Below are positions 1,852-11,913 of a stretch of DNA of 64,000 nucleotides, one piece after another; the first letter of the stretch is position 1, and every line of letters starts with the position of its first letter. A program made the position numbers and the translations under genes. The notes under the pieces were generated by a model. The model was not told the origin of the DNA and ran no database searches. It saw nothing but the letters and a program-made list of their open reading frames with translations. Where the stretch lies: positions 1,674,001 to 1,738,000 of the forward strand of contig NC_013922.1 of assembly GCF_000025625.1 (NCBI RefSeq). Reading direction: 5' to 3'. The DNA comes from Natrialba magadii ATCC 43099. Its GTDB lineage: Archaea; Halobacteriota; Halobacteria; Halobacteriales; Natrialbaceae.

Positions 1852-2097
1852 TCAGGAGCTTTCAGTGATTTCGACTCGAACAAAACGGAGGTCGTCGTCA
1901 CCATCGCGATCGCGACGAACGATGTCGGCGTCCTCGAGTCGAGTGAGTGCGCGATCCAATGTTCGGCGTGGCATCTCGGTTTCCTCCTGGAGTTCGTCGC
2001 GACGGATGGATCCACCGGCCTCCTCGATAACCCAGAGGAGGTGCTTCGCACTCCATGGTAGCTCGTCGACATCGGGGGTGTGTTCGGGGAGGCTCAT
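1852..2097 (-). CDS. Winged-helix transcriptional regulator, 81 aa
   Basis: Residues 12-75 read as a MarR/PadR-like winged helix: LPWSAKHLLWVIEEAGGSI, then a recognition region MPRRTLDRALTRLEDADIV and an acidic wing. This is a typical small haloarchaeal DNA-binding protein of plasmids and proviruses. It starts 75 bp below the end of the primase-helicase gene, and a perfect palindrome lies 30 bp beyond its stop. By position it is the probable regulator of the module; the target is an inference. Confidence 0.7.
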   Translation of the reverse strand: MSLPEHTPDVDELPWSAKHLLWVIEEAGGSIRRDELQEETEMPRRTLDRALTRLEDADIVRRDRDGDDDLRFVRVEITESS

Positions 2098-2172: not shown

Positions 2173-5100
2173 TCAGTCACCCGAACCAGGACCGGCTTTC
2201 CAGTCCCAAACATCAGCCGGCTGATCACTCGAGCCGTCTTGAGGTCCTAGATCACCGTTGTCCGGGGTAGTCGGGTCGCGGATCGCCAACGCCCACCTAC
2301 TAGAGTCTACGTAGGAGTCAGTTGGCGATTCCTGAATGTCACAAACGCCAGTATGAGGCAGTCCAGACTCGGAATACAGCGTCGCACCGTTCGATCCCAA
2401 CCCTTCAGCAGCCTGGACAGCGTCGACGTTGACGAGTCGCTCGAGTGTCTGCCGGACGTGCTCTTTCGAACAGTCGACGGCGTCGGCGAGCTCCCGCGCT
2501 GTTCGCGAGCGATGACTCGAACGAAGTTCGTCGACGATCGCCTCCTGGAGGTCAGAGTAGACCCACTCGACACCAGGCGTCTGGACGTCGGCGAAAGCAG
2601 CGGGCATCGCATCCGTTCGAACGAATACCGTCGCGGTCACGTCGGGATCGGTCGGATCGCGAGCGTACCGACCGGCAGCCTGAGCGATGTGGTTCTCGCG
2701 AACGCTCGCGAGGATCTCTTGAGCAGTGTCGGCGTCGTCTCCCTCGAAGCCACGGCCACGTGCTCGGTACTCCTCCCCGGCGCTGTCGGTGGCGGTCTCA
2801 ACTTCTGCCTCGAGGTCGAGTTCGGCGAGCAGATCCAGAACGTAGTCGTCGCCGGGATCCATGCAGCCGTTGACGAGGCCGACGCGCTCGTGCTGGAAGT
2901 CGTTCCGTGACTTCTCCTCGCCGAAGTGCATCAACTCGGGACGGTGGCAGCCGGCCTCCTCCATCAACTCCTCGAGTCGATCCTCCACTTGTCCCGTCGT
3001 GATCGCCGTGCGGAACTGGGTGCCATACTCGTCGACGAGCTGGTCGAGCAGTACCTCAAGCTTGTCCTCGTTCAGCCACTCGAGCGCCTTGTCACCCGAT
3101 AGCGGTCGGGTTGCGTCGCCAACCTGGACGACACGGAGTCCGCGTTCGTAGCGTCGCCACAGTTGCCGTGCTTCGGATTCGAGGACGTCGGTCGTTTTGA
3201 TCCACGGGACGGTGTTGGCTTGCCACAGCGGCACTGCGGGGTGTGCGTCAAGTCCAACGACAGATCGCGCAGCGCCGAAGTCAGGAACAGTCCGGACAGT
3301 CTGGACATCGTTGTTCTCGTCGAGGACGACGCTCACCCACTCGCGGTTCCAGTCGTCGTCATCGCGAACGCCGGCCTCGAGACGCGGTGGTTCGTGGCCT
3401 GTCTTCCCGAATCGGCGACCGTTGGCGCGATCTTCGGCACGGAAGATCGCCCTCGCGAGCGCTGGTGCGAGTGTGTGCGCATCCGGGCACTCGAAGTACC
3501 AGTCCCGATCGGGCTCGGTCCAGAGGACATCCTCAAGGGCATCGCGTTCGCGAGCGGCGTCACCCTGGTAGTCGTCGTGGAGTGAGAGTTGGATGAAGGC
3601 TTCCCAGGTCGTGACAGGGGCGTCGATCTCGCGAAGGTACGCGCCGATGGCGTCACGAATACGGCTCGTCGAGAGATCGTCCTGTTCGTAGCTGGGCTCT
3701 TCATCGACGACGACGTTATTGTGCGAGCGGAGCCCGGGAGCAAACGCAAAGTTGTGCGTCGCGATGACGAGCGGCCAGTAGTCGAGTTCCCCGTCGGGTC
3801 CCTCGCGATACTTCTCCCACTGCGTGATCGCCGTACACCGATCACCGCCGCAAGGGAGTTCGACGCCCTGGTCGTTGTGCTCTTCGAGGTAACGATGCGC
3901 AGCGCTGAACGGCATCCCCTTGCCTTCACACTGGGCATCGAGCCAGTCGCTGGCGGGGTCGCCGTTGATCGTGATCTCGTCGTCGTGCTCGCCGGCGCAG
4001 ACCGGGCAGGCTTCGTGGCGACCGAGCAGGACGTGGTACTGTCCGCTGTGCTCTTCGGCGACGTCGACGGCCTCGTCACGAGCGTCGCGTGTCTCGAGCA
4101 GGTGGACGACCGGCCGGTCACCGGTGATGTCTTCGCGAGCGCCCCAGCGCGTCGACGCGATCGTGTAGGACTTCCCGAGCGATGTCGGGGCATCGACGAT
4201 CTGCTCGTCTTCGTTGCGGATCACGTCGGCAATCGTCTCGAAGAGCTCTTCGCGAGCGTCGTCCGTCGACGGCCATTCGAGGCCGCGTTTCTTGGCGAAC
4301 CGTCGGCGTTCCGTGGGCTTGAGTGCGTCTAACTGGGCGATCGGAAGCGCTGAAACAGCGCGACCATCGCCATCTTGCGTATACGCGTCGTCGGAATCGT
4401 ACTCAGGGATATCGAACCCGAGTTCGCGTAGTCGCTCGACACCGCGCCACCACGTCTCGCCGTCGACGGGACGGGCGTTCGCGGGGCGGATCTCGCCAGC
4501 GTCGATCGCGGCCATGGTGACGACGCCACCGTAGCCACCGAGTTCACCGGTGTCTTGCCAGCGCTCGTCGTTGACGATGTTCGCCGTCCCGCCGTCGGAC
4601 AACGATCCCCACGTGGGCCAGAACGCTCGCTCGCCTTCGCTTGTGTTGGCGTCGTCGTTCCAGCGCTGGACGATCGTCTTTTTCGCGACGTGTTGAGCGT
4701 CGAGTCGATCGATTGCGTGGAAGATGTCGCGGATGTCGTCCGTGGTCTCGCTGCTCGAGGTTGTGTTCGGTTCGTAGTCCTCGAGATCGTAGTCCTCACG
4801 GTCGACCGAGACATCAGCCGGGTCGCGAGTGACCTTACGAGGGAGCTGGTCGTTGGCCTCCAGGAGGTCATCGAGAACGCTGTCGTCCCACTCGTTAATC
4901 TCGGTCGGCGTCCCGAGAACGTGCTCCCCGGTCATCACGCAGACACGCTTGCCGGGGTAGATCTCGATCGATGGGAGATCGTCGTTCTCACCCCATGGAT
5001 CCTCGTCGATTCGCCAAGCCGCTTGCTTGACACCGTTGGGAAGTTCACCGCGATAGATCGCGTGTGCACCACTGTCGGACTGAGAGACGTCGGCGTAGGT

Positions 5101-5691
5101 TATACCCAGGTGTTCGAGGATCGCGATGAACGCTGGATGGACATCGCCGGTCTCAGGACAGCGGACATCGTCACCGTCGACGTAGACGAACGGGTCGTCT
5201 TCGGTTTGGAGGAACGCGCGGCCGTCGAGTCGGGGATCGATCTCGGCCATCGCGACGGCTTCGCCGTCGACGTAGTTGCCGTGGTAACCCCACTTGAACC
5301 GGGCATCGCAGTCGCATGTCGCAGCGGTGTCGTGGCCGTCTTTCGAACACTCCGCGGGTGCATCCTGGTCGCCCCAGGGGGCGAACGGTTTCTTCTCGAT
5401 GTGGCCCATCCACTGCTCGCGCTCAAGCAACTCGCCGGGCCAGGTGTTCGGTTCAGGGTTGGCAAAGTCAGCATCTGCCCAGTGGTTCCAGGATACACCG
5501 CGATCGGTTGACCCCGTACGGCAGTGTCCATGAACAGGTCCCTGATCGTCCACCAGCTCACCGTCGACGATCGCCTCGGCCGCCTCGAGGTAGCTGGGAT
5601 CAGCGTCAGCCAGCCAGAGCAATCGCTTGGGGCTGGCGTTCGGGTTGTTTTCGTGAGTGAAGCGAAGTCGCTCGACGACATCGTCGCTCAC
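2173..5691 (-). CDS. Primase-polymerase / SF2 helicase fusion, replication protein of an integrated element
   Basis: A 1171-residue protein that starts at a GTG overlapping the stop of the HNH gene (GTGA). Residues about 165-270 match the archaeo-eukaryotic primase pattern of haloarchaeal mobile elements: FVYVDGDDVR (169-177, acidic metal site), SQSDSGAHAIYRG (203-215, Ser-x-His site) and IEIYPGKRVCVMTGEHV (242-258). A second part has a Walker A, DAPTSLGKSYT (500-510), and a Walker B/DEAD-like VVVDEEP (660-666). Between them lie five Cys (562, 565, 588, 614, 619), the place where XPD/DinG helicases carry an iron-sulfur cluster. Residues about 1040-1100 form a winged helix. Likely role: priming and unwinding for replication of a plasmid or provirus. 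The exact family and the Fe-S cluster are inferences. Confidence 0.8.
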   Translation of the reverse strand: MSDDVVERLRFTHENNPNASPKRLLWLADADPSYLEAAEAIVDGELVDDQGPVHGHCRTGSTDRGVSWNHWADADFANPEPNTWPGELLEREQWMGHIEKKPFAPWGDQDAPAECSKDGHDTAATCDCDARFKWGYHGNYVDGEAVAMAEIDPRLDGRAFLQTEDDPFVYVDGDDVRCPETGDVHPAFIAILEHLGITYADVSQSDSGAHAIYRGELPNGVKQAAWRIDEDPWGENDDLPSIEIYPGKRVCVMTGEHVLGTPTEINEWDDSVLDDLLEANDQLPRKVTRDPADVSVDREDYDLEDYEPNTTSSSETTDDIRDIFHAIDRLDAQHVAKKTIVQRWNDDANTSEGERAFWPTWGSLSDGGTANIVNDERWQDTGELGGYGGVVTMAAIDAGEIRPANARPVDGETWWRGVERLRELGFDIPEYDSDDAYTQDGDGRAVSALPIAQLDALKPTERRRFAKKRGLEWPSTDDAREELFETIADVIRNEDEQIVDAPTSLGKSYTIASTRWGAREDITGDRPVVHLLETRDARDEAVDVAEEHSGQYHVLLGRHEACPVCAGEHDDEITINGDPASDWLDAQCEGKGMPFSAAHRYLEEHNDQGVELPCGGDRCTAITQWEKYREGPDGELDYWPLVIATHNFAFAPGLRSHNNVVVDEEPSYEQDDLSTSRIRDAIGAYLREIDAPVTTWEAFIQLSLHDDYQGDAARERDALEDVLWTEPDRDWYFECPDAHTLAPALARAIFRAEDRANGRRFGKTGHEPPRLEAGVRDDDDWNREWVSVVLDENNDVQTVRTVPDFGAARSVVGLDAHPAVPLWQANTVPWIKTTDVLESEARQLWRRYERGLRVVQVGDATRPLSGDKALEWLNEDKLEVLLDQLVDEYGTQFRTAITTGQVEDRLEELMEEAGCHRPELMHFGEEKSRNDFQHERVGLVNGCMDPGDDYVLDLLAELDLEAEVETATDSAGEEYRARGRGFEGDDADTAQEILASVRENHIAQAAGRYARDPTDPDVTATVFVRTDAMPAAFADVQTPGVEWVYSDLQEAIVDELRSSHRSRTARELADAVDCSKEHVRQTLERLVNVDAVQAAEGLGSNGATLYSESGLPHTGVCDIQESPTDSYVDSSRWALAIRDPTTPDNGDLGPQDGSSDQPADVWDWKAGPGSGD

Positions 5692-6299
5692 GCCGACTCA
5701 CCCCCTTTCCCGTTGGCGTGGATCCTTCCGTGCTCTTCAGCCGTCAATACCTCTATATTCGCTGGACGATTGTCCCATGGGATACCATTTTTATGATGGA
5801 CGACCTTCTGGCCAACCTCCTCATATCCGTACTCGGAAACTGCCAACAACCGGTGAACAGCAACCCTCTGTCTCTGGCCGTCTCTGAAGACTCTCCAACG
5901 AGCGTAGCCTTCGGTATCGACATCATAACGCGCTGGTTCGTGCAGGGCGCTTAATTTGACTGCTTCTGTACGTGATCGGCGTTCAATCCCGTGTTTGTCG
6001 AGCCATGTTCTAACTGTGGGAGCAGCACAGTCCAGCCTCTCAGCGAGGAATTCGGCTGATTGATTGTACTCAATGTATTGCTCGCGGAGCCAGCTTTCGT
6101 CTCTGAGTTCATCTGGCGTCTTTTCCCAGTTTGGTTCGCGTGTTTCAATCCCGTGTTCGTCTAGCCAACGACCAACGGTCTCGCTGGAGCAAGCCAACGT
6201 ATCACTGATGTCGTGAATGCTGAGTTCACGTCCGATGTAGAGTTCTCGGAGGACCTCGGGGTCCCTCCACGGGTATTTTCGTCCACTGTACTCCGACAT
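5688..6299 (-). CDS. HNH endonuclease-type protein with two helix-turn-helix repeats
   Basis: A 203-residue protein. The N-terminal half holds two homologous DNA-binding repeats: one ending SSETVGRWLDEHGIETRE (about residues 38-55), the other APTVRTWLDKHGIERRS (about 93-109). The C-terminal part, KVVHHKNGIPWDNRPANIEV followed by EEHGRIH, has the HH-N-H signature of HNH nucleases of the homing/phage type. The start is an ATG overlapping the TGA of the 76-residue gene by one base, and its end overlaps the primase gene. It may be a free-standing homing endonuclease or a nuclease of the element; no target is visible. Confidence 0.75.
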   Translation of the reverse strand: MSEYSGRKYPWRDPEVLRELYIGRELSIHDISDTLACSSETVGRWLDEHGIETREPNWEKTPDELRDESWLREQYIEYNQSAEFLAERLDCAAPTVRTWLDKHGIERRSRTEAVKLSALHEPARYDVDTEGYARWRVFRDGQRQRVAVHRLLAVSEYGYEEVGQKVVHHKNGIPWDNRPANIEVLTAEEHGRIHANGKGGESA

Positions 6300-6529
6300 C
6301 AGAGACCCCCCTTAGAGAAGTCCCACAGTGTCGTTTGACCGTCGACATCTGGCCGTTCGACATCTTGGTCGTCACCAATTTCCGGAACGCCTTCTGTCCG
6401 CTCTTTGCCGATGTCTTCGGGATCGGTCGCGTAGACGACATCCTCGGCTTGCTTCTCGAGCTCAGGACGCTCGGTGATGTACTGGACGGTACCGTCGAGC
6501 GGAGCCCCCTCGTAAGAACGTCCGCTCAT
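6299..6529 (-). CDS. 76-aa protein with a C-terminal PCNA-interaction-like motif
   Basis: A small acidic, low-complexity protein (MSGRSYEGAPLDGTVQY...). Its last 12 residues contain QTTLWDF at 65-71, which fits the PIP-box pattern Q-x-x-L-x-x-F used by archaeal replication and repair proteins to bind the sliding clamp, although the usual second aromatic residue is Ser here. It is the first gene of the accessory operon, directly ahead of the HNH and primase-helicase genes. The rest of the sequence suggests an unstructured tether. A role in recruiting host PCNA is inference. Confidence 0.55.
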   Translation of the reverse strand: MSGRSYEGAPLDGTVQYITERPELEKQAEDVVYATDPEDIGKERTEGVPEIGDDQDVERPDVDGQTTLWDFSKGGL

Positions 6530-6629: not shown

Positions 6630-6667
6630 TACCCTCAACCCGATTGGATTGTAAGGATTTTGATGTA

Positions 6668-6743
6668 AGCCAAGGGCCGGATTTGAACCGGCGGTAGGCG
6701 GCTCTGCAGGCCGCTGCGTTCGGCCGGACTCTGCCACCTTGGC
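6668..6743 (-). tRNA. tRNA-Cys (anticodon GCA)
   Basis: On the minus strand the 7-bp acceptor stem GCCAAGG/CCTTGGC, the anticodon arm GCGGC-CTGCAGA-GCCGC (anticodon GCA) and the T arm GCCGG-TTCAAAT-CCGGC are complete. The discriminator base is U, as expected for cysteine tRNA. CCA is not encoded. It is the distal gene of the rrn operon, the usual haloarchaeal position. Confidence 0.96.
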
Positions 6744-6822
6744 GCAACTGATTGTTGTTCCTGCGTTCGTTTAAGCATAGCGGTACGGCGTAGCCGTGAT
6801 CCGCTGACTGTACAACTGCAAA

Positions 6823-6854
6823 ACGCCCCGCAGAGTTGGCACTCTGCAGGGCGT
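6823..6854 (-). terminator. Strong hairpin between 5S rRNA and tRNA-Cys
   Basis: ACGCCCCGCAGAGT (6823-6836), loop TGGC, ACTCTGCAGGGCGT (6841-6854): a 14-bp stem with one mismatch, followed on the transcribed strand by TTT (6820s). It may attenuate read-through into tRNA-Cys or be a processing signal for the 5S 3' end; sequence alone does not decide. Confidence 0.5.
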
Positions 6855-6872
6855 AAGTATGGAGTATGAGTA

Positions 6873-6993
6873 GGGGCGGCGAATCGGCTCTCCCAGAGGG
6901 TCTCCCACTCCAGTACTCACCAATACGCAGGCAGGCTTATCTTCCGTGTTCGGGATGGGTACGGGAGGAACCCCGCCGCGATGGCCGCCTTAA
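6873..6993 (-). rRNA. rrf: 5S ribosomal RNA
   Basis: About 121 nt beginning TTAAGGCGGCCATCGCGGCG and ending in the complementary GCCGCCCC, with the typical archaeal internal sequence CCCGAACACGGAAGATAAGC. It lies between 23S and tRNA-Cys on the minus strand. Ends are set by the terminal helix and are accurate to a few bases. Confidence 0.95.
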
Positions 6994-7060
6994 CGCTGAT
7001 CCACGGAATCGAACCGTGACTATCTGACACCAGTCTCAGTGGTCTCTTCAGACCGTGTTG

Positions 7061-7103
7061 TACGTGTAGTCCAGTTTGCGTCCGGACCCGTTCTCGCGTC
7101 ACG
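7061..7103 (-). other. 3' arm of the 23S rRNA processing stem
   Basis: This stretch is complementary over most of its 43 bases to 10076-10118 upstream of 23S; TACGTGTAGTCCAG (7061-7074) pairs without mismatch with 10105-10118. In archaea such stems carry the bulge-helix-bulge cut by the tRNA-splicing endonuclease; an endA gene is present at 38414-39541. Confidence 0.8.
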
Positions 7104-7114
7104 GATCCAATGCG

Positions 7115-10033
<2,919 letters not shown>

Positions 10034-10075
10034 CCACGTTCATCGGATCGGCGCTACACCAGAAGTGTAGCATAT

Positions 10076-10118
10076 CGTGACCCGGGAACGGGTCCAGTGG
10101 ACGCCTGGACTACACGTA
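10076..10118 (-). other. 5' arm of the 23S rRNA processing stem
   Basis: Partner of 7061-7103. The core GAACGGGTCC and the end CTGGACTACACGTA are complementary to the 3' arm, with small internal differences that would leave bulges. Confidence 0.8.
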
Positions 10119-10238
10119 CACACGGTCTCATCTGCACGCCAGTAGACGGCTGGCCTGCATTGACCCTTCCCACTCACGCTTACGCGGAGTGGTGCATCGG
10201 TTCGTGCGCCGCGATCTCAAAGAGACCGTGACGCGATA

Positions 10239-10310
10239 TGGACCCACTGGGATTTGAACCCAGGGCATCCTCCTTGCAAAGGAGGCACTCTCCCACTGAG
10301 CTATGGGCCC
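10239..10310 (-). tRNA. tRNA-Ala (anticodon TGC) in the 16S-23S spacer
   Basis: 72 nt on the minus strand: acceptor GGGCCCA/TGGGTCC, D arm GCTCAGTGGGAGAGTGC, anticodon arm CCTCC-TTTGCAA-GGAGG with anticodon TGC, T arm CTGGG-TTCAAAT-CCCAG. Position between 16S and 23S is that of nearly all haloarchaeal rrn operons. Confidence 0.97.
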
Positions 10311-10337
10311 ACCCCTCCAAACTGGAGGGAACGAAGC

Positions 10338-10403
10338 GTTAGCCTTGGTAGTTCAAAGGTGCCCGTTCGGTTCGGCGGGTGGGTGGTGTAACCGAACGTG
10401 GAC
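10338..10403 (-). other. 3' arm of the 16S rRNA processing stem
   Basis: GTTAGCCTTGGTAGTT (10338-10353) is a perfect 16-base complement of 12028-12043, and AACCGAACGTGGAC (10390-10403) complements 11979-11991, so the regions flanking 16S pair into a long stem with an unpaired middle part. Confidence 0.8.
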
Positions 10404-10442
10404 TGAAAGGTGGGCTGGGGCGTCGCCCCAGTCCCGATCTGT

Positions 10443-11913
<1,471 letters not shown>

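Follow-up and report, generated by a model that had tools for sequence, protein, structure and literature searches.

A primase fused to a predicted XPD/DinG-like helicase in a haloarchaeal tailed provirus

A gene of Natrialba magadii ATCC 43099 encodes what appear to be a primase, a helicase and a winged helix in one chain, and raises the question of what such a protein does and whether the cysteines of its helicase form an iron-sulfur site like that of XPD and DinG. The window, i.e. the whole stretch of DNA that was analysed, comprises 64,000 nucleotides (NC_013922.1, positions 1,674,001 to 1,738,000), and the features discussed are collected in Table 1.

Domains of the fused protein

The original prediction of a primase-polymerase and a helicase in one chain was supported, as all the elements were found in a single ORF: the primase-type active site, Walker A and Walker B (the latter VVVDEEP, residues 660-666) and the C-terminal winged helix. 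Homologues with 30-82 % identity, well above chance, are spread over Halobacteria and viral contigs. Pfam and NCBIfam scans of the primase-helicase gave HTH matches only.

Table 1 Features of the primase-helicase locus (positions in the window; residue numbers of the 1172-aa protein)
Feature	Position	Strand	Remarks
AEP primase / XPD-DinG-like helicase / winged helix fusion	2173..5691	-	Single 1172-aa ORF, GTG start
AEP (NrS-1 PrimPol-like) primase domain, residues about 75-300	4792..5469	-	7rr3 E 7.4e-13; 7ola E 1.7e-10
AEP motif I YVDGDD, residues 170-175	5167..5184	-	D172 and D174 in 48/48
AEP motif II SQSDSGAH, residues 203-210	5062..5085	-	S203, S205, G208 and H210 in 48/48
AEP motif III IEIY, residues 242-245	4957..4968	-	E243 in 47/48, Y245 in 48/48
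Helicase module and winged helix as modelled, residues 455-1115	2347..4329	-	AF2 pLDDT 80.8; top match 3crv XPD
Walker A DAPTSLGKS, residues 500-508	4168..4194	-	G506 and K507 kept in 115/116 alignment rows
C562, conserved putative ligand	4006..4008	-	112/115; aligns with XPD Fe-S Cys1
C588, clade-specific Cys	3928..3930	-	52/115, nearly all one clade (tree)
H599, conserved putative ligand	3895..3897	-	113/115; helix preceding last Cys
C614, conserved putative ligand	3850..3852	-	111/115; in insertion relative to XPD
C619, conserved putative ligand	3835..3837	-	112/115; aligns with XPD Fe-S Cys4
Walker B / motif II DEEP, residues 663-666	3694..3705	-	D663 and E664 kept in 115/116 rows
Motif VI QAAGRYAR, residues 1004-1011	2659..2682	-	Q1004, R1008 and R1011 kept in 115/116 rows
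C-terminal winged helix, residues 1043-1100 (approximate)	2392..2565	-	Z up to about 9 vs winged-helix proteins; weak Pfam HTH matches
Small winged-helix protein, directly downstream of primase-helicase	1852..2097	-	Conserved; kept in relatives
HTH-HNH endonuclease gene between 76-aa gene and primase-helicase	5688..6299	-	4-bp overlap with primase-helicase start
76-aa protein, conserved upstream partner	6299..6529	-	Kept in relatives
Right attachment repeat AAGCCAAGGGCCGG, 14 bp	6667..6680	.	tRNA-Cys 3' end

In an alignment of 48 fused proteins, AEP motifs I (hhhDhD), II (sxH) and III (hD/E), as defined in PMC5862659, were present in 47-48 of the sequences. When profile A3 was compared with the PDB, phage NrS-1 PrimPol (7rr3) and the primase 7ola were matched. 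Judged by its motifs, the primase domain is very probably active.

The helicase module was modelled with AF2 from 23 sequences; the full-length AF2 model (pLDDT 54) was set aside, being too poor and giving fold matches mainly to the winged helix. With the module as Foldseek query, ranks 1-18 were all XPD, DinG, CasDinG or DdmD. The best match was XPD 3crv (E 1.4e-11), E. coli DinG had an E of 1.4e-10, and TFIIH XPD was also ahead of other classes, of which the first outside the XPD/DinG group was SecA (E 3.6e-5). TM-scores of the matches were modest (0.36-0.45). VIA-align gave Z 13.3 across 428 residues for DinG 6fws and Z 12.6 across 462 residues for XPD 8rev. In profile-profile comparisons, in which E-values are from single pairs and usable for comparison only, archaeal XPD gave E 4e-12 and four control groups of SF2 helicases from the same phylum gave 1.9e-7, 1.5e-6, 4e-4 and 8e-4. 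The XPD-like character proposed earlier was thus borne out both by fold (Foldseek) and by profile, and the two-domain SF2 motor is predicted from the model to have the XPD/DinG fold. No match for the helicase core was found when the PDB was searched by HMMER with the single sequence and with a profile.

Like the XPD/DinG SF2 helicases (3crv, 6fws; Pfam DEAD_2), the motor has two RecA domains with the same motif order, an H/NY-type motif ahead of motif II and, between Walker A and B, a putative metal-site subdomain with the first and last cluster cysteines. Pfam DEAD_2 (PF06733) was absent from the matches at E 1 and from the 25 families listed at 0.1 for the members of A4; the resemblance to this Pfam model is one of profile-profile similarity only. 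The protein differs from XPD/DinG in its fused primase and winged helix, in having DExP instead of DEAH, and in lacking two XPD ligands, with a His and another Cys in place. Helices 675-750 are placed by the model where the XPD arch domain sits, i.e. between motifs II and III.

Putative metal ligands between Walker A and Walker B

Five cysteines (562, 565, 588, 614 and 619) lie between Walker A and B, as had been claimed, but they do not form a conserved cluster. Ligand conservation was counted in 115 homologues, all below 95 % identity: C562, C614 and C619 are nearly universal, whereas C565 (Cys in 8/115) and C588 are not, and the five-Cys reading was rejected because only three of the five are conserved. 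The near-universal set is C562-H599-C614-C619. The chain studied here carries C562, C588, C614 and C619, with C588 as the fourth Cys of its clade.

The place of the XPD iron-sulfur cluster was predicted correctly in part. When the clade without C588 was aligned to XPD by profile (E 2.4e-13), the position of Cys1 was taken by C562 and that of Cys4 by C619 (CPY/CGY), and the helix with H599 matched the XPD TPEEIY helix. Conserved cysteines are thus found at this place; however, XPD Cys2 and Cys3 have no counterpart in the helicase family alignment, and the set consists of three Cys and one His. In three relatives C562, C614 and C619 were jointly lost with C588 retained (two events by parsimony), as expected if the three share one site. 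H599 was kept in two of these three relatives and is Lys in one relative with all Cys retained, and its role as a ligand thus stays putative. On this pattern of conservation and alignment, the predicted metal site is real, derived from that of XPD and rewired.

We give the predicted CHCC site a slightly better than even chance of binding a [4Fe-4S] cluster. A structural zinc, in a domain descended from the XPD Fe-S domain with a changed metal, is less likely than not. CHCC is a frequent zinc ligand set, which favours zinc, as does the fact that the set includes a His and keeps no more than two of XPD's four ligand positions. Cluster loss is also known in XPD-like helicases, the Fe-S domain of CasDinG being vestigial with three of four Cys lost (PMC10450177). 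Against zinc, the homology to XPD keeps Cys1 and Cys4, each often with Pro directly after it (74 and 62 sequences), and C588 in the clade of this protein could complete a four-Cys cluster. That the site holds no metal is improbable. A redox switch in the primase-helicase would be possible.

Relatives, primase partners and provirus

The helicase module is found with several primases. It is fused to AEP in 44-46 proteins; in other relatives the fused N-terminal region is of DnaG type (DNAG_N 3e-7 to 8e-3) or the partner is Prim-Pol (PF09250; 3e-7, plus a weaker 6e-4). Solo helicases of the family, of about 640 aa and without fused primase, also occur, and the motor can therefore have other uses. 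Changes of partner type on the tree numbered 18 compared to 43 with shuffled labels (4-state parsimony), a rough figure since 'none/other' pools solo and unassigned proteins. When 197 genomes sampled from the phylum were scanned with the helicase profile, matches outside Halobacteria were confined to the HTH part, and a viral scan using a distant solo-helicase alignment found no relative.

Two circular plasmids, both complete, have the fusion as their only recognisable replication gene, as judged from annotated products, many of which are 'hypothetical': one of 8,896 bp, from Halorientalis litorea, with an AEP-type fusion and one of 10,819 bp with a DnaG-type fusion. On contigs of 9,162, 9,257 and 9,051 bp, whose ends overlap, no replication gene other than the helicase was recognisable either, and Halorubrum p13 (13,972 bp) has a 1764-aa relative. 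Joined to three or more kinds of primase, relatives of the XPD-like motor seem to serve many haloarchaeal viruses and small plasmids as their machinery for DNA copying.

The family is variable in other respects. The DnaG-type fusion on the 9,051-bp contig (127-bp terminal overlap; L258:2873-7360, minus strand) has a helicase without C562, H599, C614 and C619. Larger relatives of about 1,300-1,800 aa (L077-L082, L191, L198 and L203) contain extra sequence between the primase and the second helicase domain.

The N. magadii gene belongs to the right end of a tailed provirus of about 50.4 kb integrated at tRNA-Cys, and the window begins inside this provirus. The left copy of AAGCCAAGGGCCGG is found at C1:1630263, 50.4 kb away and 66 bp before a tyrosine integrase ORF. 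Although 14 bp alone could be chance, the pair is convincing as an attachment repeat because one copy is at the end of the tRNA and the other adjoins the integrase. The provirus has a terminase-like ORF (Terminase_6N slightly below the cut-off), a portal-like ORF, also below the cut-off, and ORFs resembling a prohead protease and an HK97-type major capsid protein by position and sequence, the capsid ORF being without a Pfam match. No viral polymerase was recognised. The provirus also encodes an Orc1/Cdc6-like protein (L114:9635-10705, minus strand, equal to G000:C1:1643635-1644705; Cdc6_lid 5e-8).

Relatives have in common a cassette of the 76-aa gene, the primase-helicase, the small winged-helix gene and a 182-aa gene. 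Among the relatives checked, only here is an HNH gene located between the first two; it was therefore rejected as a fixed partner and is probably a recent insertion.

Probable role in replication and relation to known systems

The protein is likely to be the replication primase-helicase of the haloarchaeal tailed provirus, a role suggested by the standing of relatives as sole recognisable replication gene on small plasmids, the fusion of the helicase module to three primase types and the place of the gene in a tailed provirus. The winged helix would bring the primase-helicase to the viral origin, and the motor, like XPD and DinG, would travel along one strand in the 5'-3' direction, with the fused primase laying primers on the strand along which the motor travels. 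Such a division of labour would resemble that of T7 gp4 or DnaB-DnaG, though with a non-ring motor, and the primers would be extended by a host polymerase. The CHCC site may hold one metal centre which keeps the strand-separating subdomain together.

Since the provirus encodes an Orc1/Cdc6-like protein, initiation may pass through the host MCM. Recruitment of MCM is common among archaeal elements (PMC6563490), and together with the C-terminal winged helix this would fit an origin-binding initiator-primase, which melts DNA and passes it to the host MCM/CMG helicase, its own helicase not driving the fork. We regard this as somewhat unlikely, because the core of the helicase is both intact and conserved and remains attached to several primases of unrelated types, a pattern suggesting that unwinding is coupled to priming. 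The closest folds are those of repair and defence helicases, and PADLOC gave a type IV DinG match, which could mean that the protein is cargo, a DinG/CasDinG/DdmD-like helicase for defence or DNA repair. However, the fused primases have intact active sites, the helicase is the sole replication candidate on the plasmids of ~9-11 kb, and the annotated neighbours at the loci examined include no Cas gene, all of which make such cargo very unlikely. As the PADLOC match is only weak (E 8.6e-4), a CRISPR/defence reading was not favoured.

Like phage NrS-1 PrimPol and the SaPI primase (7rr3, 7ola), the provirus protein has an AEP with DxD, sxH and hE motifs and, in one chain with it, a helicase. In pRN1 ORF904 the helicase is of SF3, and NrS-1 has a ring-forming helicase domain (PMC8718748), whereas the motor predicted here is of the XPD type. 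AEPs fused to helicases of various kinds, remote SF2 domains among them, have already been described, and the All3500 family of the PrimPol-PV1 supergroup likewise combines a primase and an SF2-type helicase on mobile elements (PMC5862659). The SF2 domains of that family were assigned to pVOG1685/9714, of which pVOG9714 is UL9-like, and the names XPD, DinG and Halo were not found in the same paper (PMC5862659). CasDinG of type IV CRISPR systems is similar in its XPD/DinG fold, its altered Fe-S domain and its occurrence on mobile elements, but the present family conserves three Cys plus a His and there was no CRISPR context at the loci examined. A primase-helicase is annotated in Halorubrum virus HRTV-DL1 (PMC10544981), and its AEP part is related to that of the provirus protein. 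The word 'primase' is absent from a 2025 review of DinG-like proteins (PMC11981726), and in the part of the literature covered no publication was found on an XPD/DinG-type helicase with a fused AEP or DnaG.

The expectation that such a protein would be unusual for a mobile element applies to the XPD-type motor and not to the fusion itself, as primase-helicase fusions are common there. Primase-fused replication helicases on mobile elements, as described in the literature covered, have ring-forming motors or are of other SF2 types, and a constant XPD/DinG-type motor with an AEP, DnaG-type or Prim-Pol partner would add a new replication solution. It would also give a role to PHROG 27506, of unknown function, and to many haloarchaeal proteins named 'MarR/HTH' or 'hypothetical'. 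The presence or absence of C588, together with the three relatives without the other Cys, makes a natural series on the function of the Fe-S domain in this helicase class. That all of it holds at once, i.e. a non-ring XPD-type fork helicase with a three-Cys/one-His [4Fe-4S] cluster and interchangeable unrelated primases serves a large group of viruses and plasmids of haloarchaea, with the cluster tuning replication to redox state, is a speculative and on the whole unlikely reading.

The provirus shows some further features. It directly adjoins an rRNA operon (5S, 23S, tRNA-Ala and 16S; window 6668-11913). A stretch of lower GC (L114:5088-8587) has a HerA-like (DUF87) ORF beside an N6/N4 DNA methylase ORF and is possibly a defence island. 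An 834-aa ORF (G000:C1:1651338-1653842, plus strand) resembles by eye a haloarchaeal S-layer glycoprotein, and might be receptor-changing cargo.
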